Shown piece by piece: positions 7,344-23,200 of a stretch of 36,741 nucleotides of DNA. Numbering within the stretch: position 1 is the first letter of the stretch; every line of letters starts with the position of its first letter. The notes beneath the pieces were generated by a model. That model was given only the letters and a program-made list of their open reading frames with translations, had not been told where the DNA came from and made no database searches. The translations under genes were made by a program, and so were the position numbers. The DNA is from Chloroflexota bacterium. Lineage in GTDB: Bacteria; Chloroflexota; Dehalococcoidia; JACPPY01. Where the stretch lies: the NCBI GenBank assembly GCA_016190755.1, contig JACPPY010000066.1:1-36741 (forward strand). Direction: 5' to 3'.

Positions 7344-7832
7344 CTACTTTGCTCGTATCGTATCGGCCCAGGTCAGCAAGCCTACACCGGCATCCCGGGC
7401 TGACTGGTATCTTCCTGCCAGGGCCCGCAGTTTTTCAGACGAGAAGCGCTCGGCCAGTATATTGAGCCCATCGCAGTTGGTCACATGCACCAGCAGGTTG
7501 CGCGCAGCCTTTGCCACAGTGGCGCGTTCTTCGGGAGTTAGCTCTGGCCTGGCCAGCAGTGAAACCGCGACCTTGGCTGTCGCCACAACTCCGTCATGCT
7601 CTTTGATCAGTTGGTCGACGTACTCTCCAAGGAACTCCCTGAGAGCAGGATAAAGCGCTTCCTCTTCATATCGGAAATGCGGTCCGGTCAGGACGTCCAA
7701 TGCCCCCAGGGTTTGCCTGGCAGTTTCCAGGTCTCCCGCCTCCGCGGCTGAAGCCAGCTTCAGAAGCCCGTCGCGTACCTTCCGGTGGTCCTCGCGGAAT
7801 TCATCGATAGGGTCAAGTGTCTTTAGTGTCAT
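7344..7832 (-). CDS. Hemerythrin HHE-domain protein
   Basis: DEFREDHRKVRDGLLKL...HFRYEEEALYPAL...LIKEHDGVV. Confidence 0.85.
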   Translation of the reverse strand: MTLKTLDPIDEFREDHRKVRDGLLKLASAAEAGDLETARQTLGALDVLTGPHFRYEEEALYPALREFLGEYVDQLIKEHDGVVATAKVAVSLLARPELTPEERATVAKAARNLLVHVTNCDGLNILAERFSSEKLRALAGRYQSARDAGVGLLTWADTIRAK

Positions 7833-8590: not shown

Positions 8591-9949
8591 CTAATGCCGT
8601 TGCAGGTCGGCTGGTCCCACCTTCGCCTTGGCATAGCCTGCGCCGGGATTCAGCGTCCCTGCCGTTGCTGGCCCTGGAACCCGCTGGACCCGCATCAGTA
8701 AGTACCCCAGCAGCAGCGAGACCAACGAGATGGCGACGAAGATGGTGAAACCTGTAGCGTAGCCGTCGAGCCCCCACAGGCGCACGGCCAAGGCCATCAG
8801 CGGCGGCAAGGCGAATCCACCGAAGGCCCCAATGCCACCTACCCAGCCGGCAGTCCCTCCAACAGACTGCTTCGCCACCTGAGGCACGATCTTGAAGACC
8901 GCAGCGTTGGCGATGCCCATGCCGAAGGCCATCACGACCAGGCCGGCGACCGAAAAGGAACTATCATGCGAGAGAGTCATCAGCGCTGAGCCGGCCAGGA
9001 ACACTGCCAGGGAGAACATGAGAGTCTTCTCGCCGCCAATCCGGTCTGACATGGACCCTCCGGCAACACGGAACACGGAGGTCAGAATGGAATAGAGAGC
9101 TGTGAGAGCTCCCGCCCTGGCCAGGCTGTGACCGAAGAAGGACATCCAGTAGGTTGGAAGCCAGGCCGTCAAGGCGATGAAGCCGCCGAAAGTGGCAAAG
9201 TAGATGGCCACAAGGACCCATGTCTTCCAGATCCGGCTTGCTGCGACCAAGCCCCGGAAGGTGTTGCCGGAGGGGAAGATGTCCTGACCGAATCTGCGAG
9301 AGGTCTCAAGCGCCTCATTGTGTGGCACTTTCCTGTCCCGCAACTGGAAGTAGCATGCGTTCTGGCCGGTGATGACGTAAGCAGCTATACCCATGGCGAG
9401 GAAGATGAGCCAGGCAAGATAGGTGCCCGGCAACCCCCAGCCGACAAGGCTGTATGGCAGGACAAGGGAGAAGATGCCGGGGGCCATATTCGCTAGGCCT
9501 CCGTATATGCCGAGCGCCGTGCCTTGCTTGCCCTGCTTGCACCAGTATGATACCTGGCCTATGCCTACTGAGAAGGTCGCGATGCCGCAACCGCAGAGCA
9601 CGCCGGTGAGCAATAGCAGAGGGTAGTGGGCGGAGGTCAAACTGTCCGGGTAGAGGAGGCTCACAACGATGAACAGGGCCGCCATGCCAAAAAATGCCAG
9701 GACCAGGAGGAGTATAAAGGGCTTCCGCCCGCCGTTGCCGTCTGTCCAGGCGCCGAATGGGATGCGCAATAGTGAGCCTGACAGCGCAGGCATGGACACG
9801 AGGAACCCTACCTGGACCGGGCTGAGGTCCATTACTTGCTTGAACTTTTGCGCTGTGGGTCCAAACAGTGCGACCGCGGCCAGTCCGATGAAGAACCCCA
9901 GAGTCGAGCTGAAGAGACATTGCCTGAAAGAGCCCTTTATTTTATGCAT
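8591..9949 (-). CDS. narK: NarK-type nitrate/nitrite MFS transporter
   Basis: 12-TM MFS with PFGAWTDGNGGRKPF and GGxANMAPGIF-type motifs; follows narGHJI. Confidence 0.9.
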   Translation of the reverse strand: MHKIKGSFRQCLFSSTLGFFIGLAAVALFGPTAQKFKQVMDLSPVQVGFLVSMPALSGSLLRIPFGAWTDGNGGRKPFILLLVLAFFGMAALFIVVSLLYPDSLTSAHYPLLLLTGVLCGCGIATFSVGIGQVSYWCKQGKQGTALGIYGGLANMAPGIFSLVLPYSLVGWGLPGTYLAWLIFLAMGIAAYVITGQNACYFQLRDRKVPHNEALETSRRFGQDIFPSGNTFRGLVAASRIWKTWVLVAIYFATFGGFIALTAWLPTYWMSFFGHSLARAGALTALYSILTSVFRVAGGSMSDRIGGEKTLMFSLAVFLAGSALMTLSHDSSFSVAGLVVMAFGMGIANAAVFKIVPQVAKQSVGGTAGWVGGIGAFGGFALPPLMALAVRLWGLDGYATGFTIFVAISLVSLLLGYLLMRVQRVPGPATAGTLNPGAGYAKAKVGPADLQRH

Positions 9950-9954
9950 GTAGT

Positions 9955-10641
9955 TTACTGCCCTCTACGAGAAGTTATCTGGCGCTGGCCCCACACCACC
10001 ACCTGGTATGATCGCCACAGATAGGCCAGGGGCACGGACAGCATATGTACCAGCCGCGTGAACGGGAAAAGCGCCAGCAGTACGAAGGCATTTACAATGT
10101 GTACCTTCACCAGCAAAGGCAAGGACGTCACGTAATCAGTCTGCGGCTGAAGTTTGAACAAGGACCAGAAATACGGCGTCGCAGTGTGTACATACCAGGA
10201 GCTGCCCCAGCGATAGTAGATAGCTATGCCGAGCCCGGCTCCTACCTGGAGGAGCAGCAAGAACAGGAGTACGGCATCCATGCCCGAGGTTACGGCGCGC
10301 AGGCGTGCATTGGAGCTTCGCCTCACAATCAGGACCAGCAGGCCCAATAAGAGCAGAAACCCCAGGGCCAGCGCTGTGCCCTCCAGTATGTACAGGCGAA
10401 CAGGCTCTCCGTTGAAAACCTTAACCCCCGAGGGGAAGACGACGCCCACAAGGTGGCCTATGAGGATGGTGATTATACCGTAGTGCCAGGGGACCGAGCC
10501 CCAGAACAACTGCCGACTCTCCAGAAACTGTGACGAGACGCTCGAAAAGGAGAACTGGCTGGCGCGGTAACGCCATATCGAGCCCACGATGGCCGATAGA
10601 GCGGCTAAATAGGGTAAGACTGCGAACAGAAAATCACTCAC
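9955..10641 (-). CDS. narI: Respiratory nitrate reductase gamma subunit (cytochrome b)
   Basis: NarI-like TM protein with conserved His pairs (WHYGIITILIGH; VKVHIVNAF...RLVHMLS). GTG start at 10641 overlaps the narJ stop (GTGA). Confidence 0.9.
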   Translation of the reverse strand: MSDFLFAVLPYLAALSAIVGSIWRYRASQFSFSSVSSQFLESRQLFWGSVPWHYGIITILIGHLVGVVFPSGVKVFNGEPVRLYILEGTALALGFLLLLGLLVLIVRRSSNARLRAVTSGMDAVLLFLLLLQVGAGLGIAIYYRWGSSWYVHTATPYFWSLFKLQPQTDYVTSLPLLVKVHIVNAFVLLALFPFTRLVHMLSVPLAYLWRSYQVVVWGQRQITSRRGQ

Positions 10642-11192
10642 CGGTGGACCTCCTGTGTCCTGGCCAGCTCTGCCGAGACCTGTTCGAGAAACAGCCAGAG
10701 AGAGCGGACCGCCAGCCAGTATTGGTTTTTGTCTTTCTGAAGGCCTTTTTCTATGCGTCCGAGGGTGGGCACCATGCACTCTTCAAGCAGAGGCCCGGTG
10801 AACTGGAAGTCTGAGGTGACGCCCAGGAACCTCAGCATAACGCAGAGATGGTCGCCCAGCTCGCCCCCACACTCGACACCATTGGCCGCATAGGCATCGT
10901 GCAAATGGATGAGAAAGGAGCTCCTTTTGGGCCCATCCCCGAACAGGTGGTAGCCCAGGTATAGAGTGTTAGAGTTATCAAGGTCGAACGCCTGCGTGTA
11001 GGCCTCTTCCAGGGTCCGCAGGGGCAAACGCCTGGTCAGGGACGCGAACGACAGCATCGGGGCTGCCGCTGCCGGGCATTGCATCTCAAGCGCTCCGCAG
11101 CAGGTGGCTGCCGATTCCGAAAACGAGCCGGTGGGATAGTCCATGACTCGTGCGAACAGCCGGCACAGCTCTCTTGTATTCTCGATCAGCAT
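10638..11192 (-). CDS. narJ: Nitrate reductase molybdenum cofactor assembly chaperone
   Basis: NarJ/TorD-like; position between narH and narI; LEEAYTQAFDLDNSNTLYLGYHLFGD. Confidence 0.88.
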   Translation of the reverse strand: MLIENTRELCRLFARVMDYPTGSFSESAATCCGALEMQCPAAAAPMLSFASLTRRLPLRTLEEAYTQAFDLDNSNTLYLGYHLFGDGPKRSSFLIHLHDAYAANGVECGGELGDHLCVMLRFLGVTSDFQFTGPLLEECMVPTLGRIEKGLQKDKNQYWLAVRSLWLFLEQVSAELARTQEVHR

Positions 11193-12691
11193 TATGGACC
11201 CCGCCGGGGAGAGTTATTGGGGCCAAAACCTGTCCGGCCCTTGTGAATCATGGGGTCTACAGTGGCCTCAATAGAAGCCTCGCGCTGATACGGCGGCAGG
11301 GAGAAACGGTCCTGGAAGCGTGGCAAAGCAGTCAGGCGTGATATGGCTTCTGCCTCGGAGGGGGTAGACCCGGCCATCTTCAACGCGGCGAGGGCATTGT
11401 CCTTGCCTCCACTCCCGAATGATGCCGCGTGCTTGTACAGCCTGACAGCCCGGAGCTTGTCCAGCGCCCTCTCAACGGTCTTTTCATTGCCGCCCGAGAA
11501 CAGCCTGGCCAAATACCACAAGGGCAGGCGCGCGTTTTCCGTGTCCGAGAAACGACCGGAGCCGGACATATCGAAAATCCCACCAGCGCTGTCCCGGGAA
11601 GCCGCGACGACAGGCAGTAGCGGGGGAACGTAGAACAACGTGGGCAATGTTCGGAACTCCGGATGAAGCGGCAGGGCAAGCTCCCATTCTTTGACCCATT
11701 TGTAAATGGGTGACTCGCATGCCGCATCGACCCAGGACTGGCTTATGCCGTTCCTGAGCGCGGCGGAAGCAACGGCCGGGTTGCGGGGATCCAGTATCAG
11801 GCTGCGCTGGGCTTCCACCAGCACTGCTTCGGGCGCCCTCGCCACCTCGCCGATTCGCTCCGCGTCGTACAACAGGAGCCCCACATAGCGGATCCGGCCA
11901 ACACAGGAGTGGAAGCATGCCGGCGCCTGTCGGCTCTCCAGGCGAGGATAGCAGAGCACGCACTTCTCAGACTTGCCTGTCTTCCAGTTGTAGTACACCT
12001 TCTTGTACGGGCAGCCGCTTATGCAGAAGCGCCACCCGCGGCATTTATCCTGGTTGACCAGGACGATGCCGTCTTCGGCACGCTTATAGGGGGCGCTGCT
12101 CGGGCACACGGCTACGCAGGCCGGATTGAGACAGTGGTTGCAGTTGCGAGGGATATAGAAAAAGGCCATCTGCTCCACCTGGAACAGGGACGCTCGTTGC
12201 GCCAGCGTCAGGCCCTCCAGGTTGACATCGTTTCTGGCGTAAACCGCTGAGCCGCTCATGTCATCGTCCCAGTTGGGTCCCGCTTCGATATCTATGTACC
12301 TGCCCGTAAGGCGAGAGACTGGCCGCGCGGTCGGCTGGTCCTCGCCTTTCGGGGCATCGGTAAGTACCCCGTACTGATAGGTCCAGGGCTCGTAGTAGTC
12401 ATCCAGTGTAGGCAGGTTAGGGTTGTGGAACAGGCTGGAAACCAGCCTCAGCCGTCCGCCAAGCCTGGGAGTCAGGGATTTTCCGTTTAGCTCCCATCCT
12501 CCGCGATATTTCCGCTGGTCTTCCCACATCGTGGGATAGCCCGTGCCCGGCTTTGTCTCCACGTTATTCCACCACATGTACTCGGCCCCGTCCCGAGAAG
12601 TCCATATGTTCTTGCAGGCTATGCTGCATGTGTGGCAGCCGATGCATTTGTCGAGATGGAAGACCGCAGATACCTGTGCTCGAATGTCCAT
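11192..12691 (-). CDS. narH: Respiratory nitrate reductase beta subunit
   Basis: CIGCHTCSIACKN, CNHCLNPACVAVCP, CRGWRFCISGCPYKK. Start at MDIRAQVSAVFHLDKC (12691) rather than the longer ORF. Confidence 0.95.
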   Translation of the reverse strand: MDIRAQVSAVFHLDKCIGCHTCSIACKNIWTSRDGAEYMWWNNVETKPGTGYPTMWEDQRKYRGGWELNGKSLTPRLGGRLRLVSSLFHNPNLPTLDDYYEPWTYQYGVLTDAPKGEDQPTARPVSRLTGRYIDIEAGPNWDDDMSGSAVYARNDVNLEGLTLAQRASLFQVEQMAFFYIPRNCNHCLNPACVAVCPSSAPYKRAEDGIVLVNQDKCRGWRFCISGCPYKKVYYNWKTGKSEKCVLCYPRLESRQAPACFHSCVGRIRYVGLLLYDAERIGEVARAPEAVLVEAQRSLILDPRNPAVASAALRNGISQSWVDAACESPIYKWVKEWELALPLHPEFRTLPTLFYVPPLLPVVAASRDSAGGIFDMSGSGRFSDTENARLPLWYLARLFSGGNEKTVERALDKLRAVRLYKHAASFGSGGKDNALAALKMAGSTPSEAEAISRLTALPRFQDRFSLPPYQREASIEATVDPMIHKGRTGFGPNNSPRRGP

Positions 12692-12702
12692 GCGCTTCTC
12701 CG

Positions 12703-15700
12703 TTACCAGACTGGTTTGCCCTGGAGCTTGCGAACAAGGATATGCGTATCCCTGTTGATGCCCGTCGGGCCCCAGTAGTTGAAACTGTAGGTGAACTGCC
12801 CGTAGCCGCCTGCCATCAGCACTGGCTTTAGCCTTATACGAGTAAGGCTGTTGTGTCCTCCGGCACGCCGCAGCCCGCGCAACGGCGACTTCGGTACCGA
12901 GATGGTGCGCTCCGGCGAGTGGTACAAGAGGCATGTCCCCGCGGGCACCCTCGCCGTCACCACGGCGCGAGTCACCACCACGCCATGGTCGTTGTAGACC
13001 TCCACCCAATCGTTATCCTTCACCTGTATGGCAGCAGCATCTTGCTCGCTTAGCCACAGAGGCTCAATTCCGCGCGACAGGGTCAGCATCAGCTCGTTGT
13101 CGGAGTACGTGGAGTGTATGTGCCACTTCCCATGCGGTGTGAGGTAGTTAAGCATGATGCTGCCGTCCTTGGGCTTCGTACGAGTGAAATCCCCGAAGAA
13201 CTCCGGGCTGGGCGCCGGCTTGTATGTCGGCAGGTTCTCTCCAAATGCAAGGTACAGCTCGTGGTCGAGATAGAACTGCTGCCGGCCCGTGAGAGTCCGC
13301 CAGGGAACCAGGTGCTCCGTGTTGATGCAGAAAGGCGCGTACGTCCGGCCATCGGCTATGATGCCCGACCAGCAGGGGCTGGTTAGCAGCCTGGCAGGGC
13401 GTTGCTGAAGTTCAGCGAAGGTCGTCCTGACTCCCCTGTCTTTCTCAACCAGGTGCGCCAGCGGGCGGCCTACTTTCTTTTCCTCCTCCTGGAAGGCCCG
13501 GTAGGACACCTCACCATTCGTCTCTGGAGCCAGGAACAGTATCACGTCGGCAGCCTCGCGCGCCTCCTCCAGCGAGGGGTACCTGTTGCCGTTCCACTCC
13601 TGAAGGCGGTGAGATGTCATCAGTTGATCGTAGAAGTCTTTGGCATCCCACTTTACCCCGTGTGCTCCCAGGCCGCCCTGCCTCAACTGCGGGCCAAGTG
13701 AGATGAAGCGGTTGTACAGGTTCACATAGTCGCGTTCCACGACCCGAAGATTGGGCATGGTCTTGCCGGGAATAGGCTCACTTTCACCCTTGGCCCAATC
13801 CTTTACTTCCGGCTGCGCTATCTCGTCCGCAGTGTCATGCTGAAGGGCGGTACAGACGATGTCTTTCACGGGCTGCGGGAAGTGCTTCTTTGCCAACTCG
13901 CTGATCTTCCTGGCAAGGGACTTGAAGATTTCCCAATCGCTCTTCGACTCCCAGCAGGGAGGTACGGCCTGCGAGAGGGGGTGAATGTAGGTGTGCAGGT
14001 CCGTGGAGTTGAGGTCGTCCTTTTCATACCAGGTCGCGGTCGGCAGGACGATATCCGAATACAGGGCGCTGGTGTCCATGCGGAAGTTGATATCTACCAT
14101 CAGGTCTATCTTGCCGGTAATGGAATCGCGCCATTCCACTTCGCTCACCTGGCCCTGGGCGACCTCGGATGCGTTGATGTTGGAGTCTGTGCCGAGGAAG
14201 TTCCGGAGGAAGTACTCATGTCCCTTGGCGCTGGAGGTGAGGGCATTGCCCCGCCAGATAAGCCACAGACGTGGCCAGTTCTCGGGCGCGTCAGGGTCTT
14301 CCGCCGCAAAGCGCAGTTTTCTGTCGTTCAACTGCTTGATCGTCCAGGCGATCGTCTCCGCATCTCTCTGGGCCCCAGCCTTCTTGGCCTCCTCCGCCAA
14401 CGAGAGTGAGTTCTGGTGGAACTGCGGGAAAAATGGCAACCATCCCATGCGCACGGCCCTGGCCTGGATATCTGCTGTATGGCCGCGAGCTACCGCGCTG
14501 TTCTCCGCCATGGGCTGGTACTCGTTGAAACCGCCTTCGTAGCGCCACTGGCCGGTATGCATGTAGTAGAAGGAGGGCGCGTTCTGAAGGCGAGGCGGCG
14601 CCACCCAATCTGTCGCGAAGGCTATCGTGGACCATGGAGCAACGGTGGCCAGCTTTTCCTGCCCGACATAGTGGGCCAGGCCGCCGCCGTTCCGCCCCAC
14701 GCTGCCCGTGAGCATCAGGGCTGTGATCGCCGCACGGTAGATCAGGTTGTTGTGATACCAGTGATTGATGCCGGCGCCAACCATGATGGTACATTTGCCC
14801 TGTGTCTGTTCTGCCGTGTCGGCGAACTCGCGGGCGAATTTGACCACCGAATCGCGGCCTATGCCGGTGAGCTTTTCCTGCCAGGCGGGAGTATAGGATT
14901 TCTCATCATCGTACCCGGCGGGATAGTCGCCCCGCAGATTGCGCCGTATACCGAACTGCGCCATCATGAGGTCGAAAACCGTGGTCACAGCGACGGTGCC
15001 CTCATCGGTCTGCACGTGTTTGACGGGCACGCCGCGCAGGGACGTGGCAGAAGGCTCAAAGCCGGTAACCTTGACTTCTACGATATCATCGTATCCATCG
15101 AGGAACGTGAGCGCCGGTTTCAGGTCCGACCCGTCCGCGCCGTCCTTCATCTCCAGGTTCCACTTCCCCATGTCCTCTTTTGACCAACGCGCACCGACGC
15201 TGCCTCTGGGCATCCGAGGCCGCCCCGATTTCTTATCGTAGACGAGGAACTTCCAGTCGCCGTTCTCCACGTTGCGGTATTCCGGGAGGGATTTCGCCCG
15301 CAACAGTTTTCCCGCCTTATGGGCATCGCCGTCCTTGCTTAATGCCACAAGGAATGGCGAGTCGGTGAACCTGCTGAGATAATCGTTGAAAAATGGTACT
15401 TGCCGGTCCGCGAAGAACTCCTGAAGGATCACATGGTCAACCGCCATCCAGAAGGCGCCGTCCTGGCCGGGGTGCACGGGTATCCACCAGTCGGCATACT
15501 TCGACACCTGGCTGAAATCAGGCGCCAGGACGACGAACTTTGCCCCGTTGTGTCGTGCCTCAGCCACGAAGTGAACGTCAGGGGTCCTGGTCATGCTCAG
15601 GTTGGCCCCCATGCTAACGATGAACTTAGCATGGTACCAATCGGCGCTTTCTTGCACATCGGTCTGTTCTCCCCATACCTCCGGGGAAGCAGGAGGCAGG

Positions 15701-16317
15701 TCACTGTACCAATCGTAGAAGCTCAGATTGATCCCGCCGAAGAGCTGCAAGAGCCGCGCGCCGCCCGCGTAGCTCAGGTAAGACATCGCCGGAATAGGCG
15801 AGAAGCCGGCTACTCTGTCGGGTCCATGGCGCTTGGCGGTATATATCATCGAAGCCGCGATGATCTCAAGGGCTTCATCCCAGGACGTTCGACGCAGCCC
15901 GCCTTTTCCCCGGGCTTTTTGATAGATGGAACGTGCCGCCCCATCCTCCATCAGGGCACCCCAGGCTTCGACAGGATCGCTGTGCAGCCTCCGCGACTCC
16001 CTCCAGCGGTCCGCTAGCACGCCCCTGATGTACGGGTACTTCACCCGGATAGGGCTGTAGATATACCAGGAGAAAGAGATGCCCCGTTGACATCCCCTTG
16101 GTTCATACGGAGGGATCTGCCTTTCGAAGTCAGGGTAATCGACGGCCTGCGACTCCCAGGTCACGATGCCGTTCTTGACGAAGACCTGCCATGAGCACCC
16201 GCCGGTGCAGTTGACTCCATGCGTGCTGCGTACCGTCTTGTCATACTGCCAGCGGTTTCGGTAGAAGTCTTCCCAGCACCGCAGCTCCGGGTTCGCGATA
16301 TCCTTTATCCAGCTCAT
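12703..16317 (-). CDS. narG: Respiratory nitrate reductase alpha subunit (molybdopterin)
   Basis: [50 protein letters not shown] at 16317 has an AAGGAGG SD and a 4-bp ATGA overlap with the upstream cyt c gene. Confidence 0.96.
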
Positions 16318-17204
16318 CTTGAGCCTCCTTGAACCATGCGTCGACGCACCCCGGAGAGCCGGCCCCTCCAGACAAAACCCAGGAGGACCATTATGATCAG
16401 CCAACCGGCGGCGCTTGCCACCAGGTACCAGGAGAAGAGACTTGCCGGCCTGGCTTCACCTGGCTTTCCGGCCTCTTCCAGGAAGGCCACCAGGTTGGCG
16501 ATCTCTTCGTCGGTCAGTGGCTTGTCCGCGCCGATCTCGCGCATTACAGGGAACGGCATATTCTTCAGGACGGATGTTACGCCCTGCGCACCAAAGACGG
16601 AGTAAGCTCCCGTAAGGTCTTTGGCCACTGCCCCGCCACCCGCCCCTCCGAGGCCGCGAACGGAATGGCAACTCAGACACGCAGGTCCGCCGTTTTTCAA
16701 CGGTGTTACACCGGTGAACAGGTCTCGACCGGCAGTGGCACTACCGGCGACAGCGACGGTCGTGGTGCTTCGGGGCTGGCTGCTCTGTGTCGATTGTCCT
16801 GTACCGGTGGGCTGACTGGCCTGACCTGACATCTTGTCGAGATAGGCCAGAACCTCCCGCGCCGTCTCGGGGGAAACCCCCAGGTTGGGCATTGGTATCG
16901 CGTACTCAGCCAGAAGCTGCTTCGCGATGGGATCTCCCGAGGCGATCACCTGGTCCGGGGATACGATGAAACGGACCAGCCACTCACGGTCGCGCTTCTG
17001 AGTTACCCCCTGGAGGTCGGGGCCTACTTTCCGACCGTACCCAACAGTGTGGCAGCTCGCGCATTTCTGCGCGAAGGCCGAGGCGCCAGCTTCCTCGGGC
17101 CCGGCGGCGCGCACCGCAGTGGTTGCAACGGCTGACGTCAAGGCCAGGGCCGAAACGGCGAGAGCGATTCCCCAGACTACTGCGCGCGGGTATGTCGTCT
17201 TCAT
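16314..17204 (-). CDS. Diheme c-type cytochrome with N-terminal signal and C-terminal TM anchor, first gene of nar cluster (narC-like)
   Basis: Two CxxCH motifs (CASCH, CLSCH), signal peptide, TM near the C-terminus. Confidence 0.88.
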
Positions 17205-17528: not shown

Positions 17529-18098
17529 TTATGAGACCAACAATATCTCCTTGGCCTTAGGGAGAAGAGCTTCGTTTTCCCTGGCGATGTGAGATCCAAG
17601 GTTGAAGCCAAGCTCTTTTGCTGCATGTATAATCAAGGTTCCACGGTCACCCGTTAGCCTCCGGCGATCCAGGTGGCGCACCTGAAGCCTGAATTTATCA
17701 ATACATTCTCTGATGATCCGGTGGTCGTTTTTGTAGACGGATAACGGCCCATACATTTGGCACAGTGTGGCACAGAGTGCGAACATATTGTCACAAATGT
17801 CCGGTGTTCCAGTTATTAGCTCGATTGGTCCGGGCCCAGCCAGTGCCCCTTGCACAAGTGGAAACAGGACCTCCTCTTCAAAGCGGAAGTGCCTGGGCAA
17901 CTCGTCCTGCACGAATCGCAGGAACTCGATCAGATGGCGTTTCGATGCCATGACATCCTCGTCCTGCAAGCTGTCGAACAGGACTTCGACCTGGGCTAAT
18001 CCGCGGTCGTGGTCACATTTGATAGTGTCCAGTGCGTCAGCTATATTCAATTGCAGTCTTCCAATTTCGTCTATCTGCCTCAGCTTCTGCTCCGTCAT
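17529..18098 (-). CDS. Hemerythrin HHE-domain protein
   Basis: IKCDHDRGLAQVEVLFDSL...HFRFEEEVLFPLV...HIARENEALLPKA. Start set to MTEQKL. Confidence 0.75.
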   Translation of the reverse strand: MTEQKLRQIDEIGRLQLNIADALDTIKCDHDRGLAQVEVLFDSLQDEDVMASKRHLIEFLRFVQDELPRHFRFEEEVLFPLVQGALAGPGPIELITGTPDICDNMFALCATLCQMYGPLSVYKNDHRIIRECIDKFRLQVRHLDRRRLTGDRGTLIIHAAKELGFNLGSHIARENEALLPKAKEILLVS

Positions 18099-18477
18099 TG
18101 CAAGAAGTCCTTCGGCTGAAGAGCGACGCGGCAACCTCTGCCTCCACATAGCTACAGGCACAATCCGGTACCTGAAGGGCACATAGCTCAAATCCAAGAG
18201 GGGCTACCTCACCGGTGACATATGCCTCTTGCCTGGTAGGGACAGCACTGACTACTTACTATCTATACTAGAAGTAGGGATTGCTTCGTCGGCTCCCTCC
18301 ACCATCCCACCACCCCAGCCTTCTCGCAACGACGGAGAGGAGAGCCGTCTACTGAGACTGTCCTGTCCGAACGGCATGCCTATCTTTCTCCTATGTTCAC
18401 TTTCCCAAAACATTGATACACACCCACACATCCGAGCAAACTGCCCCGGCGTGTTGGGTGACTTTAATTACAACATG

Positions 18478-18939
18478 CTACGGCGCCACGGTCTTTATGT
18501 ATTGCGCCAGCGCGTTTATCTGCTCCGGCGTCAAACGCCCCTTGAAACCAGCCATGGCGGTGTTGGGCCGCCCGTTGGTAATCGTGTCCGTGACCAGGTC
18601 GACGGACTTGGACGATAGGCTAGTCGGCGTAAGCGGAGGACCAAGACCCGAAACCCCCTGGCGATTGTTACCGTGGCACACGGCACAGTTAGCGGCGAAG
18701 AGCGCCTTGGCATCCACGCCCGATGCGGTTGTGCTCGTGGCCGCCGCCGTTGTGGTCGTAGTGGCCTTGGTAGTAGTTGTGGTAGTGGTGGCCGATGCCT
18801 TAGTCGTAGTAGTGGTCGTAGTTGCCTTAGTCGTGGCAGCCGATGAAGTCGACGTGGGGCTTGTTCCAGAGGAGCAAGAGGCTGCGACTACCCCGATGGC
18901 AACTATAACTGTGACAAGCGCGATTTTCATCCTCGACAC
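18478..18939 (-). CDS. Cytochrome c lipoprotein with Thr/Lys/Ala-rich low-complexity linker
   Basis: Lipobox VAASC, (T)n linker, CAVCHGNNRQGVSGLGPPLT...MAGFKGRLTPEQINALAQYIK. Confidence 0.88.
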   Translation of the reverse strand: MSRMKIALVTVIVAIGVVAASCSSGTSPTSTSSAATTKATTTTTTTKASATTTTTTTKATTTTTAAATSTTASGVDAKALFAANCAVCHGNNRQGVSGLGPPLTPTSLSSKSVDLVTDTITNGRPNTAMAGFKGRLTPEQINALAQYIKTVAP

Positions 18940-18960: not shown

Positions 18961-19866
18961 CTAGATCAGCACATCGATGAGCATGAATGCGAACAGTCCC
19001 AGCAGGTACAAGCCGGAGAATTTGTAGCTGGCCCAGGCCGTTTTGCGCTCGTGCCTGCGCCATAGCAATAGGTTCGAGCCAAGGAAGAGCCCTCCGAAGA
19101 GCAATGCTCCGGCGAGGTATACCGGCCCCAGTTGCGAGAAGAAGAACAGCGCAATGGAGGATGCTACCATCAGCGCCGAGTGCAGCATGATATAGCGGGC
19201 CGTTGCCTGCCGGCTGGCCACCAGCGGCAGCATAGGTATGTTCGCCTCACGATAGCTCTCACTGTGCACCAGCGCAAAGCTCCAAAAGTGGCTGGGAGTC
19301 CAAAGGAAAAGGATGACGGCAATGACAAGTGGCGCAGCAGACAGTTGTGTTGCTACAGCAGCCCAGCCGGCAAGCGCCGCGCACGAGCCTGCCAGGCCTC
19401 CGACCACGATATTCACAGGCGTGCGCCGTTTCAGCCACCAGGTATAAACAAGCGCATAGACCGTCGCGCCAAGGAGTACGAAGATCGCCGTGAGGTAGCT
19501 CAGAAGCAGTGAGATGGCCACCGCCACAATTAACATTCCCACGGCAACGGACAGGGCTTTCCAGGCAGGTATGATGCCCCTTGCCATTGGCCTGTTCCTG
19601 GTCCGGGACATGACCGCATCGATGTCCCGGTCCATGTAGTTGTTCATTATGGAGGCACTCGCGCTGGCCATAACCCCGGCCACAGCCACCAGCGCTACGC
19701 GGAGCCAGGGCACGCTGGGCCCGGCGGCAACCGTCGCAGTAACTACCGCCACGACTACCAAAAGCGCCAGTATCCTGGGCTTGCATAGCGAGATGTAGTC
19801 CCGTATGCTGGCCACTTCTATGGAACCGGCAGGGGATAGCGCTGGCTCTGAGGCTTCCCCGATCAT
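18961..19866 (-). CDS. ctaB: Protoheme IX farnesyltransferase (heme O synthase)
   Basis: UbiA family: LCKPRILALLVV, NNYMDRDIDAVMSRTRNRPMARG, WTPSHFWSFAL. Confidence 0.93.
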   Translation of the reverse strand: MIGEASEPALSPAGSIEVASIRDYISLCKPRILALLVVVAVVTATVAAGPSVPWLRVALVAVAGVMASASASIMNNYMDRDIDAVMSRTRNRPMARGIIPAWKALSVAVGMLIVAVAISLLLSYLTAIFVLLGATVYALVYTWWLKRRTPVNIVVGGLAGSCAALAGWAAVATQLSAAPLVIAVILFLWTPSHFWSFALVHSESYREANIPMLPLVASRQATARYIMLHSALMVASSIALFFFSQLGPVYLAGALLFGGLFLGSNLLLWRRHERKTAWASYKFSGLYLLGLFAFMLIDVLI

Positions 19867-19882: not shown

Positions 19883-20020
19883 CTAACGGATTGGCCATGC
19901 CTCGCTGAGCAGACGGTAATTGGCCAGGACCATCAGCGCAAAGAAAGCCAGGAAGATAAGCGCCAGGACGAGTGTGCCGGGCGTCTGTACCTTGGGCTCT
20001 CTTTCTTCGTTTATCGCCAT
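19883..20020 (-). CDS. Single-TM small subunit (ba3 subunit IIa-like)
   Basis: 45-aa MAINEEREPKVQTPGTLVLALIFLAFFALMVLANYRLLSEAWPIR directly after subunit I. Confidence 0.6.
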   Translation of the reverse strand: MAINEEREPKVQTPGTLVLALIFLAFFALMVLANYRLLSEAWPIR

Positions 20021-20146: not shown

Positions 20147-21667
20147 TTAGCATTTCTGCCTCTTGCCGAAGAGCAGTGTGCTTACAGCTATCAATATGTA
20201 AATCACCAACCCGGCGAACGCTATGGTGCCGCCGACACCTACCAGTACGAGCGTCGTGTCCACCCCGGCCAAGCCCGATGCGGAGATATCCGCTGTCCTG
20301 CGGGGCACTCCCTGTATGCCGGACCACAGCATGCCAAGTGCTAGAATGGCAATACCGCTACCGAAGATATACGGCTGCACCCGCGCCCAACCCCGCCCCA
20401 CAAGCTGTTTCTGCGTCATCAGCGGCAGCAGGTAATACGTCAGGCCCATGAAGGCCAGAGTCGTCCCGCCTACTACAGTGGCATGGAAGTGTCCCGGTAT
20501 GCGCAGCGTGTTATGGGCGATCAGGTTTATCTGGTCGTTACCCTGTATGACCCCCGTGGTACCGCCGATGAAGCCGAAGATTACCATGCTTATCACCAGT
20601 GCTGCGAAACCGGGCTCGCCCCAGGGGGCCCTGGTAAGCCAGCCGAACAGCCCGGTGATACCCTTCTTGCGCTGGGCCACCTCAACGGCGGCCGGTATGG
20701 AATACGCATGGATCAGGCTTCCCACTACTGCCAGATACATGAAATAGGAGGTATTGAACATACGGGTTGCCGTGCCCAGTGCAGGGTCAACCAGCAGGTG
20801 GTGCATGGAACCTAGATTGATGAATAGCACGTAAAGTAGAAAAGCGAAGCGGCTTACCTTCTCGTTCACGGGTTTGGCCCCGACGGTCAGCGTGGCCAGG
20901 GCGTACCAGACAGCCACCATGGCCGCCAGATTGACCTGCTGTGCCGGGTGGCCGAAGGCCCAGAACACGATACGGTAGATGCCAGGATCCATTCTGGGTA
21001 GCAGGCCGACCGACCAGAGGAAGGTGGGAACGAAAGCCACGGCGCCCGCGAGCAACGTGAAGATGCCGATAATAGCGGCGACTATGAGTCCGTATGTCAC
21101 CAGGGGTACAGAGCCCGTGAACCTTCTCTCGGATTTAGCCACTATGACTGTGGCCATGAACAGGCCTATGGCCAGCAGGGCTCCAACGGCGAAAAGTATG
21201 ACTCCGAAGTAGAATAGCGGGTGAGCCTGCAACGGCGGATAGGCGGTGAACATCACGTCGGCCTTTCCGGCGAGCATGATGATATTTGTCAGTATAGCGC
21301 CGGCCAGCATCAGGACCCAGGCCAACCAGCCCAGCCCGGGCTTCACCAGCCGTGCATTGAGCAGCACCGCGCCGCCAAAGTACAACCCCGCCACCTCGAA
21401 GAAGACGATCCAGAACACCAGCATGTCAGTGCCGTGTGCCGTAAGCAGACGGTAGAATGTCTCCGGGGGGAGCAATTTCACCGCTGGCACGCGCGTAAAG
21501 GCGATGAGGATAGCAAATATGCCACCGATAAGCAGTGCAACCACTGCTGTCACTGCATTGGCTATTATCAACCTCTGCGCCGGCAGGTGTACCTTGAGGC
21601 CGGTTACCGGACAGGTCCTGAAATCCGTGCTGTCCATCGGTTGAACATTCGTTGACACCTTTGCCAT
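20147..21667 (-). CDS. B-family (ba3-like) heme-copper oxidoreductase subunit I; active-site Tyr absent
   Basis: Aligns by eye with Thermus ba3 subunit I: HNTLRIPGHFHATV, MHHLLVDP, LFGWLTRAPW. Helix VI motif is GHPAQQVN instead of GHPIVY/HPEVY. Confidence 0.92.
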   Translation of the reverse strand: MAKVSTNVQPMDSTDFRTCPVTGLKVHLPAQRLIIANAVTAVVALLIGGIFAILIAFTRVPAVKLLPPETFYRLLTAHGTDMLVFWIVFFEVAGLYFGGAVLLNARLVKPGLGWLAWVLMLAGAILTNIIMLAGKADVMFTAYPPLQAHPLFYFGVILFAVGALLAIGLFMATVIVAKSERRFTGSVPLVTYGLIVAAIIGIFTLLAGAVAFVPTFLWSVGLLPRMDPGIYRIVFWAFGHPAQQVNLAAMVAVWYALATLTVGAKPVNEKVSRFAFLLYVLFINLGSMHHLLVDPALGTATRMFNTSYFMYLAVVGSLIHAYSIPAAVEVAQRKKGITGLFGWLTRAPWGEPGFAALVISMVIFGFIGGTTGVIQGNDQINLIAHNTLRIPGHFHATVVGGTTLAFMGLTYYLLPLMTQKQLVGRGWARVQPYIFGSGIAILALGMLWSGIQGVPRRTADISASGLAGVDTTLVLVGVGGTIAFAGLVIYILIAVSTLLFGKRQKC

Positions 21668-21671
21668 ATTC

Positions 21672-22202
21672 TTACTCCGTAACGATTATCTTGCCTACCA
21701 TAGCCTGGTGGCCGAGGCCGCAGTACTCGTTGCATATGACAGTGTACTCTCCAGCCTTATCGGGGGTGATAGTAGCTACATAGTCGTAATCAGGGAGGAC
21801 CATAAGGTTAAGGTTGCCGGGTTGAAGAGAGAACCCGTGCTGGAAGTCCATGGAAGACAGATGCAGACGATAGGTTTCGCCCTCCTTGAGCTGAAGTATG
21901 GGCGACCACTGCCAGGCCCGGGCCACCAGGTATACGTCGCTGCCGGCTGGAGGGCTAACTACCGGCACTCCGGCGTCATCCCTCACCCTATACTGCTGAA
22001 CCATTCTCTGGGATGCATGGCTGAACTGGTCCTTAGTCACCTGGTATGTCTCTGTGGGTATGTTCTGTTTGCCGATGGCCATCCAGATAAACATGGAGGA
22101 GAACATTGCGAGGCCAACGATGATCGCCAGGACCACCCAGAACTTCTCGACCCGGCTAAGGGGGTTCCACCAGATGCGTTCCGGAGATGCTATACTGCTC
22201 AT
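21672..22202 (-). CDS. Heme-copper oxidoreductase subunit II with CuA site
   Basis: N-terminal TM, MDFQHGFSL and CNEYCGLGHQAM CuA ligand motifs. Confidence 0.93.
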   Translation of the reverse strand: MSSIASPERIWWNPLSRVEKFWVVLAIIVGLAMFSSMFIWMAIGKQNIPTETYQVTKDQFSHASQRMVQQYRVRDDAGVPVVSPPAGSDVYLVARAWQWSPILQLKEGETYRLHLSSMDFQHGFSLQPGNLNLMVLPDYDYVATITPDKAGEYTVICNEYCGLGHQAMVGKIIVTE

Positions 22203-22215
22203 AGTTCATCCGCTC

Positions 22216-22380
22216 CTAAGGTTTGAATAAGGGCACGCGCATCACGTCTATGACCGACCAGGCAACATAAAACACTAGGGGAATGCCCAAACCAAGAGCA
22301 AGCAGGAGATAGATGTCGTCCATCAGCACCTGGCCCAATGGTATCCGTTCCGGCTTGGTTCTCCGTTCACGCTCATCCAT
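22216..22380 (-). CDS. Small single-TM protein, first gene of the oxidoreductase operon
   Basis: MDERERRTKPERIPLGQVLMDDIYLLLALGLGIPLVFYVAWSVIDVMRVPLFKP; alternative start at 22398. Confidence 0.55.
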   Translation of the reverse strand: MDERERRTKPERIPLGQVLMDDIYLLLALGLGIPLVFYVAWSVIDVMRVPLFKP

Positions 22381-22513: not shown

Positions 22514-23200
22514 GTGCTGAAGACTTTATACCGTAATCCGCTGGCATCCATACCTTGTTTCTCCAGCCTCGATGGGGATGCGTCGCGAGTCGTAATGGTG
22601 TCGCTGCAGGAAACCCCCTATCGCAAGGAGGAGGTTATCTTCTTCGAAGGTGATCCTTGCCCGGGACTATTCATCGTTAAGTCCGGCCGGGTTAAGCTGT
22701 ACCGTAGTTCTCCCAACGGTGATGAGCATATCGTCAGGGTGCTGGGGCCCAGTGGTTGTTTTGAATGCGCGCCACTATTTGACGGCGGTCCAAACCCGGT
22801 CAGCGCTCAGGCGATGGAGGATTGCATACTATATTTCTTACCAGCCCAAGCCTTTCACGCTATCCTGACCAACCCCGAGGTCACTATGAGCTTCGTCAGG
22901 GTGCTGGCTCTGCGGCTGCGCGGGCTCCTCAACCAGGTTGAGGATATGTCTTTTCGGACAGTAAGAGCTCGCCTTGCCCGCCTGCTACTTCAAATGTCCG
23001 GGCCTGCCATTGAGTCAGTTGCCGAGGCTCCACTGACGCTGTTGAATCAGCATCAACTGGCCTGTATGCTCGGCTGCACGCGCCAGATGGTCAACTCCTC
23101 GTTGGGCAGCCTTGCGCGGGAGGGAATTATACGCAAGGACGGCAGGCGCATAGTGATACTGAAACCGGACGAGTTGAAGAGGATGGTCGAGGAAGCCTAG
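22514..23200 (+). CDS. Crp/Fnr-family transcriptional regulator
   Basis: cNMP-binding-like fold (FFEGDPCPGLFIVKSGRVKLYR) plus C-terminal HTH (LACMLGCTRQMVNSSLGSLAREGII). GTG start. Confidence 0.92.
   Translation: MLKTLYRNPLASIPCFSSLDGDASRVVMVSLQETPYRKEEVIFFEGDPCPGLFIVKSGRVKLYRSSPNGDEHIVRVLGPSGCFECAPLFDGGPNPVSAQAMEDCILYFLPAQAFHAILTNPEVTMSFVRVLALRLRGLLNQVEDMSFRTVRARLARLLLQMSGPAIESVAEAPLTLLNQHQLACMLGCTRQMVNSSLGSLAREGIIRKDGRRIVILKPDELKRMVEEA

Follow-up and report, generated by a model that had tools for sequence, protein, structure and literature searches.

O2 reductases use a cross-linked His-Tyr cofactor for O-O cleavage. An NO reductase of the eNOR family from Rhodothermus marinus was reportedly characterised by Murali et al. 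in 2024 (PNAS). The haem-copper families differ at the position of the cross-linked residue: a published active-site table lists Tyr for O2 reductases, Glu for cNOR and qNOR, Asn for sNOR and CuANOR, Asp for gNOR and Gln for eNOR, with Gln serving as the eNOR criterion, and sNOR is described there as a B-family enzyme with a cupredoxin subunit II (PMC8756737). eNOR is one of four biochemically characterised NOR families (PMC11388526). Within the Chloroflexota it has been reported from Ardenticatena maritima, where it lies in an operon with nirK (PMC4653789).

We analysed a stretch of 36,741 nucleotides from a Chloroflexota bacterium of the class Dehalococcoidia (contig JACPPY010000066.1), referred to here as the window. 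Its minus strand carries a haem-copper gene set whose catalytic subunit very probably belongs to the eNOR family, and which would thus encode a predicted CuA-containing NO reductase of the B-family (ba3-related). As judged from its genes, this groundwater bacterium probably makes nitrous oxide with an eNOR beside its nitrate reductase. The gene set comprises the following features:

22216-22380, minus strand: small single-TM subunit, 54 aa, upstream of subunit II
21672-22202, minus strand: CuA subunit II, 176 aa, with all CuA ligands
20147-21667, minus strand: predicted eNOR subunit I, 506 aa, 12 TM, with the haem b / high-spin haem / CuB site
20936-20950, minus strand: H-P-A-Q-Q motif, in which H240 is a CuB ligand followed by Q243 and Q244, the latter in place of the cross-linked Tyr
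19883-20020, minus strand: separate gene for the last helix (helix XIII), 45 aa, with AAGGAGGT upstream of its ATG

The translation of subunit I, in which FWAFGHPAQQVNLAAMVAVWY is present, matches the Pfam family of COX1 proteins (PF00115, 240.8 bits), and its closest PDB sequence is the Thermus ba3 oxidase (E 4e-53). An AlphaFold2 model built from a 52-sequence alignment (pLDDT 87, pTM 0.89) superimposes on Thermus ba3 with a TM score of 0.87 at 2.8 A. In the alignment of the two proteins Gln244 lies opposite Tyr237. The haem and CuB ligands are complete (H78, H240, H289, H290, H393, H395) and the Arg pair corresponding to ba3 449/450 is kept. The position of the relocated Tyr of cbb3 enzymes in helix VII, which we take from cbb3 structures to lie six residues before the His-His pair, is occupied by Ile283, so that subunit I has no obvious replacement Tyr. 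One turn below this position lies Tyr279, which is invariant in all 105 members of the clade described below and absent in ba3. A preceding sequence-only reading had pointed to the H-P-A-Q-Q motif, to intact metal ligands and to the lack of a Tyr at the cbb3-style position. All three observations hold: H240 to Q244 correspond exactly to codons 20950-20936, the six His ligands of subunit I are accompanied by a full CuA set in subunit II, and the helix VII residue is Ile. We also considered the motif as an assembly error, a frameshift or a chance variant; this was ruled out by the conservation of the Gln in 105 of 105 clade members.

Searches for homologues in 301 Chloroflexota genomes, a genome collection and plasmids returned two well-separated groups. 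Sequences of one share 46-87% identity with the window subunit I and read H-x-x-Q-Q without exception (105/105), while those of the other, the ba3-type B-family, share about 30% identity and read H-x-(I/V/L)-V-Y (19/19). The third and fourth residues after the CuB His are thus Gln-Gln in every member of the clade versus Val-Tyr in every ba3-type sequence, and the groups differ at over 25 other positions, including Glu91 (helix II), Tyr279 (helix VII) and His320, the counterpart of ba3 Thr312. Cys19 in an N-terminal C-x-x-T motif of subunit I is likewise invariant in the 105 eNOR sequences and absent in ba3. In trees that took in the Gln clade, ba3 and A-type sequences, but neither the eNOR proteins characterised from R. 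marinus and haloarchaea nor any sNOR, bNOR or gNOR, the Gln clade is monophyletic and apart from both oxidase types (98 in one tree, 100/100 in another). Members from Ardenticatenaceae and Rhodothermales fall within it. Placement inside the O2-reducing ba3 oxidases with a relocated Tyr, which the sequence-only reading had named as the result that would overturn it, is not what the trees give; the clade is separate and Ile283 sits at the cbb3-style position.

The Gln at the Tyr position, the clade shared with Ardenticatenaceae and Rhodothermales and the branch apart from ba3 and A-type oxidases therefore assign the protein to eNOR and not to sNOR; the cupredoxin CuA subunit II encoded upstream is a further feature of the family. 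Published tables give Asn at this position for both sNOR and bNOR/CuANOR, and a ba3 O2 reductase would carry Tyr as the fourth residue past the CuB His, where the window protein has Gln244. The proposal that this is an NO reductase rather than an O2 reductase is thus supported at the level of the class by phylogeny, signature and context, while the suggested sNOR family gives way to eNOR.

Subunit II contains the CuA set H122, C157, E159, C161, H165 and M168, conserved in 80 of 80. Its Glu19, also Glu in 80 of 80, aligns with Glu15(II) of Thermus ba3, the first 18 residues of the reference having been entered by hand. The sequence-only reading had missed the 54-aa and the 45-aa genes that flank subunits II and I. 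The former has no Pfam or NCBIfam match. In 73 of 79 eNOR loci a simple filter picks up a similar hydrophobic ORF, likewise short, ahead of subunit II, and most of these ORFs have a D(N/D/E)..LL...Y..WG pattern in common. The latter accounts for a difference in length: subunit I of the relatives has about 570 residues and includes a C-terminal helix that the 506-aa window subunit I lacks. Among 80 named loci this helix XIII is split off in 20 and fused in about 56, with the remainder at contig ends or without a match, and the tree requires five changes of state. We considered whether subunit I and the last helix, which are in one frame here, might be joined by stop-codon readthrough, and rejected this: according to ORF coordinates only about one quarter of the split loci share the frame, where one third is expected by chance. 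As the frame is shared about as often as chance predicts, and a AAGGAGGT of its own precedes the helix gene, subunit I and helix XIII are separate genes.

The minus strand reads in the order small subunit, subunit II, subunit I, last helix, ctaB, cytochrome c, hemerythrin, dihaem cytochrome c, narGHJI and narK-like. The genes around the haem-copper set are:

22514-23200, plus strand: divergent Crp/Fnr-type regulator, from profile matches
18961-19866, minus strand: ctaB, heme o synthase, NF003349 and TIGR01473 above cut-off
18478-18939, minus strand: monohaem cytochrome c that includes a Ser/Thr-rich stretch of low complexity, from profile matches
17529-18197, minus strand: hemerythrin-domain protein (PF01814), between the oxidase-like and nar blocks
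16314-17204, minus strand: dihaem cytochrome c upstream of narG, from profile matches
12703-16314, minus strand: narG, respiratory nitrate reductase alpha, TIGR01580 at 1506 bits, above cut-off, start uncertain
11192-13009, minus strand: narH, TIGR01660 above cut-off, start uncertain, overlapping narG as listed
10638-11192, minus strand: narJ-like chaperone, TIGR00684 below cut-off
9955-10779, minus strand: narI, TIGR00351 above cut-off
8591-9949, minus strand: NarK-like nitrate/nitrite transporter, TIGR00886 at 168 bits, below cut-off

Of the linked nar genes, narGHI score above cut-off and the narJ-like and NarK-like genes below it. The nar block is flanked by two hemerythrin-domain genes (7344-7832 and 17529-18197). 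A homologue of the Crp/Fnr-type regulator (66%) adjoins the operon in the nearest relative as well, and a search for FNR-type boxes in the window gave no more than expected by chance. On account of the linked ctaB, the sequence-only reading had not excluded oxidase function. Heme o synthase adjoins Gln-bearing genes in Thermomicrobium roseum and Defluviimonas, directly downstream of them, and the gene is thus no argument against an NO reductase.

The genome to which the window belongs encodes one other COX1 protein, an A-type aa3 with HPAVY. As this enzyme bears the Tyr, O2 reduction is covered elsewhere in the genome. In this genome, which is 81% complete, neither NirK nor NirS was found above cut-off, and NosZ was not found. 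A partial match to cytochrome c552 (NrfA-type) falls in an open frame of 847 aa in the same genome (G000:C52:5486-5809, L147). Among the relatives, nirK lies within 5 kb of the eNOR gene in three (G088, G304 and G047); the four ba3-only genomes that have nirK do not carry it close to the ba3 gene. Of 28 eNOR carriers, 14 encode NirK or NirS above cut-off, versus 4 of 25 ba3-only Chloroflexota (Fisher p 0.011, a value that ignores kinship); a recognised NO-forming nitrite reductase is accordingly missing in half of the sampled genomes with eNOR. Genes for a multicopper oxidase, DUF542 and P460 surround the Gln-bearing gene of a Thermus thermophilus plasmid. The nirK linkage, the co-occurrence with NirK/NirS and the plasmid neighbours fit with NO handling. 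Two Thermus thermophilus plasmid loci (L119 and L121) have eNOR-type genes, annotated as cytochrome oxidase, beside multicopper oxidase and DUF542.

A gene for a cytochrome b N-terminal domain, resembling that of the Defluviimonas cluster, occurs within a few kb of eNOR in 51 of 80 named loci, suggesting a linked bc-type donor. The window's operon has no such gene, and the genome as a whole gives two cytochrome b matches. In several phyla a second haem-copper subunit I-like gene lies near eNOR (L052:7723-9306, L053, L054, L057, L081, L086, L095 and L112). It keeps the haem His residues, the first CuB His and H-x-x-Q and has lost the CuB His-His pair, which reads PY, IY, AT or AP. Seven of these sequences group together next to eNOR in the tree on long branches, and the gene is, by its predicted ligands, a CuB-less twin of eNOR.

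The sequence with its ligands, the family placement, the architecture and the surrounding genes are observed; from them we infer what the enzyme reduces, where its electrons and protons come from and what it does in the cell. The complex would consist of the 12-helix core of subunit I, the 45-aa last helix, the 54-aa single-helix subunit and subunit II. Electrons would pass from a soluble or anchored cytochrome c to CuA of subunit II, the monohaem protein encoded at 18478-18939 being a possible donor, and from CuA via the low-spin haem to the high-spin haem/CuB site of subunit I. This site would work without a cross-linked His-Tyr cofactor, as the Tyr is replaced by Gln, and would convert two NO to N2O and water. 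Protons would probably be taken from the cytoplasm through a remodelled K-type path formed by Glu19 of subunit II and Tyr255, Ser317, His320 and Ser323 of subunit I, possibly with Tyr279 added. An eNOR is expected to have one conserved proton channel; of the ba3 channel positions, Glu19(II), Tyr255, Ser317 and Ser323 are kept here, while Thr312 is changed to His, Ser261 to Asn and Tyr244 to Val. In the cell, the enzyme may clear the NO that forms from nitrite when nitrate is respired with Nar, with the A-type aa3 handling O2.

We consider it very unlikely that the enzyme instead reduces O2, either with no cross-linked Tyr at all or with Tyr279 as proton/electron donor. Oxidases, too, have a CuA subunit II, a linked ctaB and the ba3-like fold, Tyr279 is invariant in the clade and missing from ba3, and relatives are publicly annotated as cytochrome c oxidase. 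However, Tyr279 lies one whole turn farther away from the metal pair, Ile283 fills the cbb3-style position, the clade is separate from ba3, a family member is reported as an NO reductase (PMC11388526) and the genome already has a Tyr-bearing aa3. An assignment to sNOR (NorSY), the type found in ammonia oxidisers, is extremely improbable. sNOR is also a B-family enzyme with a cupredoxin subunit II (PMC8756737), but its defining residue is Asn, where the window protein and all 104 relatives have Gln, in a comparison whose tree is free of sNOR sequences; the PLSDB matches fetched likewise included no Asn- or Asp-type (sNOR, bNOR, gNOR) sequence. A CuA-containing B-family NO reductase thus appears as the best-supported reading, based on phylogeny, the signature invariant in 105 sequences and genomic context.

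Within the eNOR reading, NO reduction may be mainly protective, without energy conservation, a role that we regard as possible but somewhat doubtful. It would suit a genome in which NirK, NirS and NosZ were not detected and a locus with hemerythrin neighbours. On the other hand, the clade as a whole retains the CuA entry, Glu19(II) and a number of K-path positions, and the Nar linkage suggests a respiratory context. A more specific and rather unlikely scenario is that of a nitrate-respiring member of the Dehalococcoidia which, having no recognised NirK, NirS, NosZ or cNOR/qNOR, would conserve energy by a proton-pumping CuA NO reductase of four polypeptides with a separate last helix. If true, such an enzyme would be a source of N2O that present gene surveys would miss.

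Public annotation calls the Gln-bearing genes of relatives cytochrome c oxidase, and in profile searches of the window proteins no NCBIfam or Pfam model singled out eNOR subunit I. Because of this annotation and the lack of a specific model, potential N2O producers are undercounted. The 105 sequences provide a simple recognition signature, H-x-x-Q-Q plus Glu91, Tyr279 and His320. In a purified enzyme or a structure, two details deserve attention: the small subunit encoded upstream and the helix XIII that is repeatedly split off.

Compared with known systems, an already characterised family gains a new member, and the split last helix is a minor architectural variant. With the eNOR of Ardenticatena, Rhodothermus and Anaerolineales the window protein shares Gln for Tyr, a CuA subunit II immediately upstream, the B-family fold and a narrow clade with invariant QQ, Glu91, Tyr279 and His320. 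It differs in that the last helix of subunit I is a separate 45-aa gene, as in 20 of 80 named relatives, and in that the locus adjoins narGHJI rather than nirK. The Thermus thermophilus ba3 O2 reductase has the same fold, metal ligands, CuA and several K-path positions, whereas Tyr237, Thr312, Tyr244 and Ser261 are replaced by Gln, His, Val and Asn, and the two proteins, about 30% identical, belong to separate clades. sNOR (NorSY) is similar as a B-family enzyme with a cupredoxin subunit II and no Tyr, but has Asn at the Tyr position. The same residue is given in the published table for bNOR/CuANOR of Bacillus azotoformans, likewise a B-family NO reductase with CuA, which is known from Bacillota. 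Finally, cNOR and qNOR also reduce NO at a haem/metal site, but are related to the C-family, carry Glu at the Tyr position and have no CuA.
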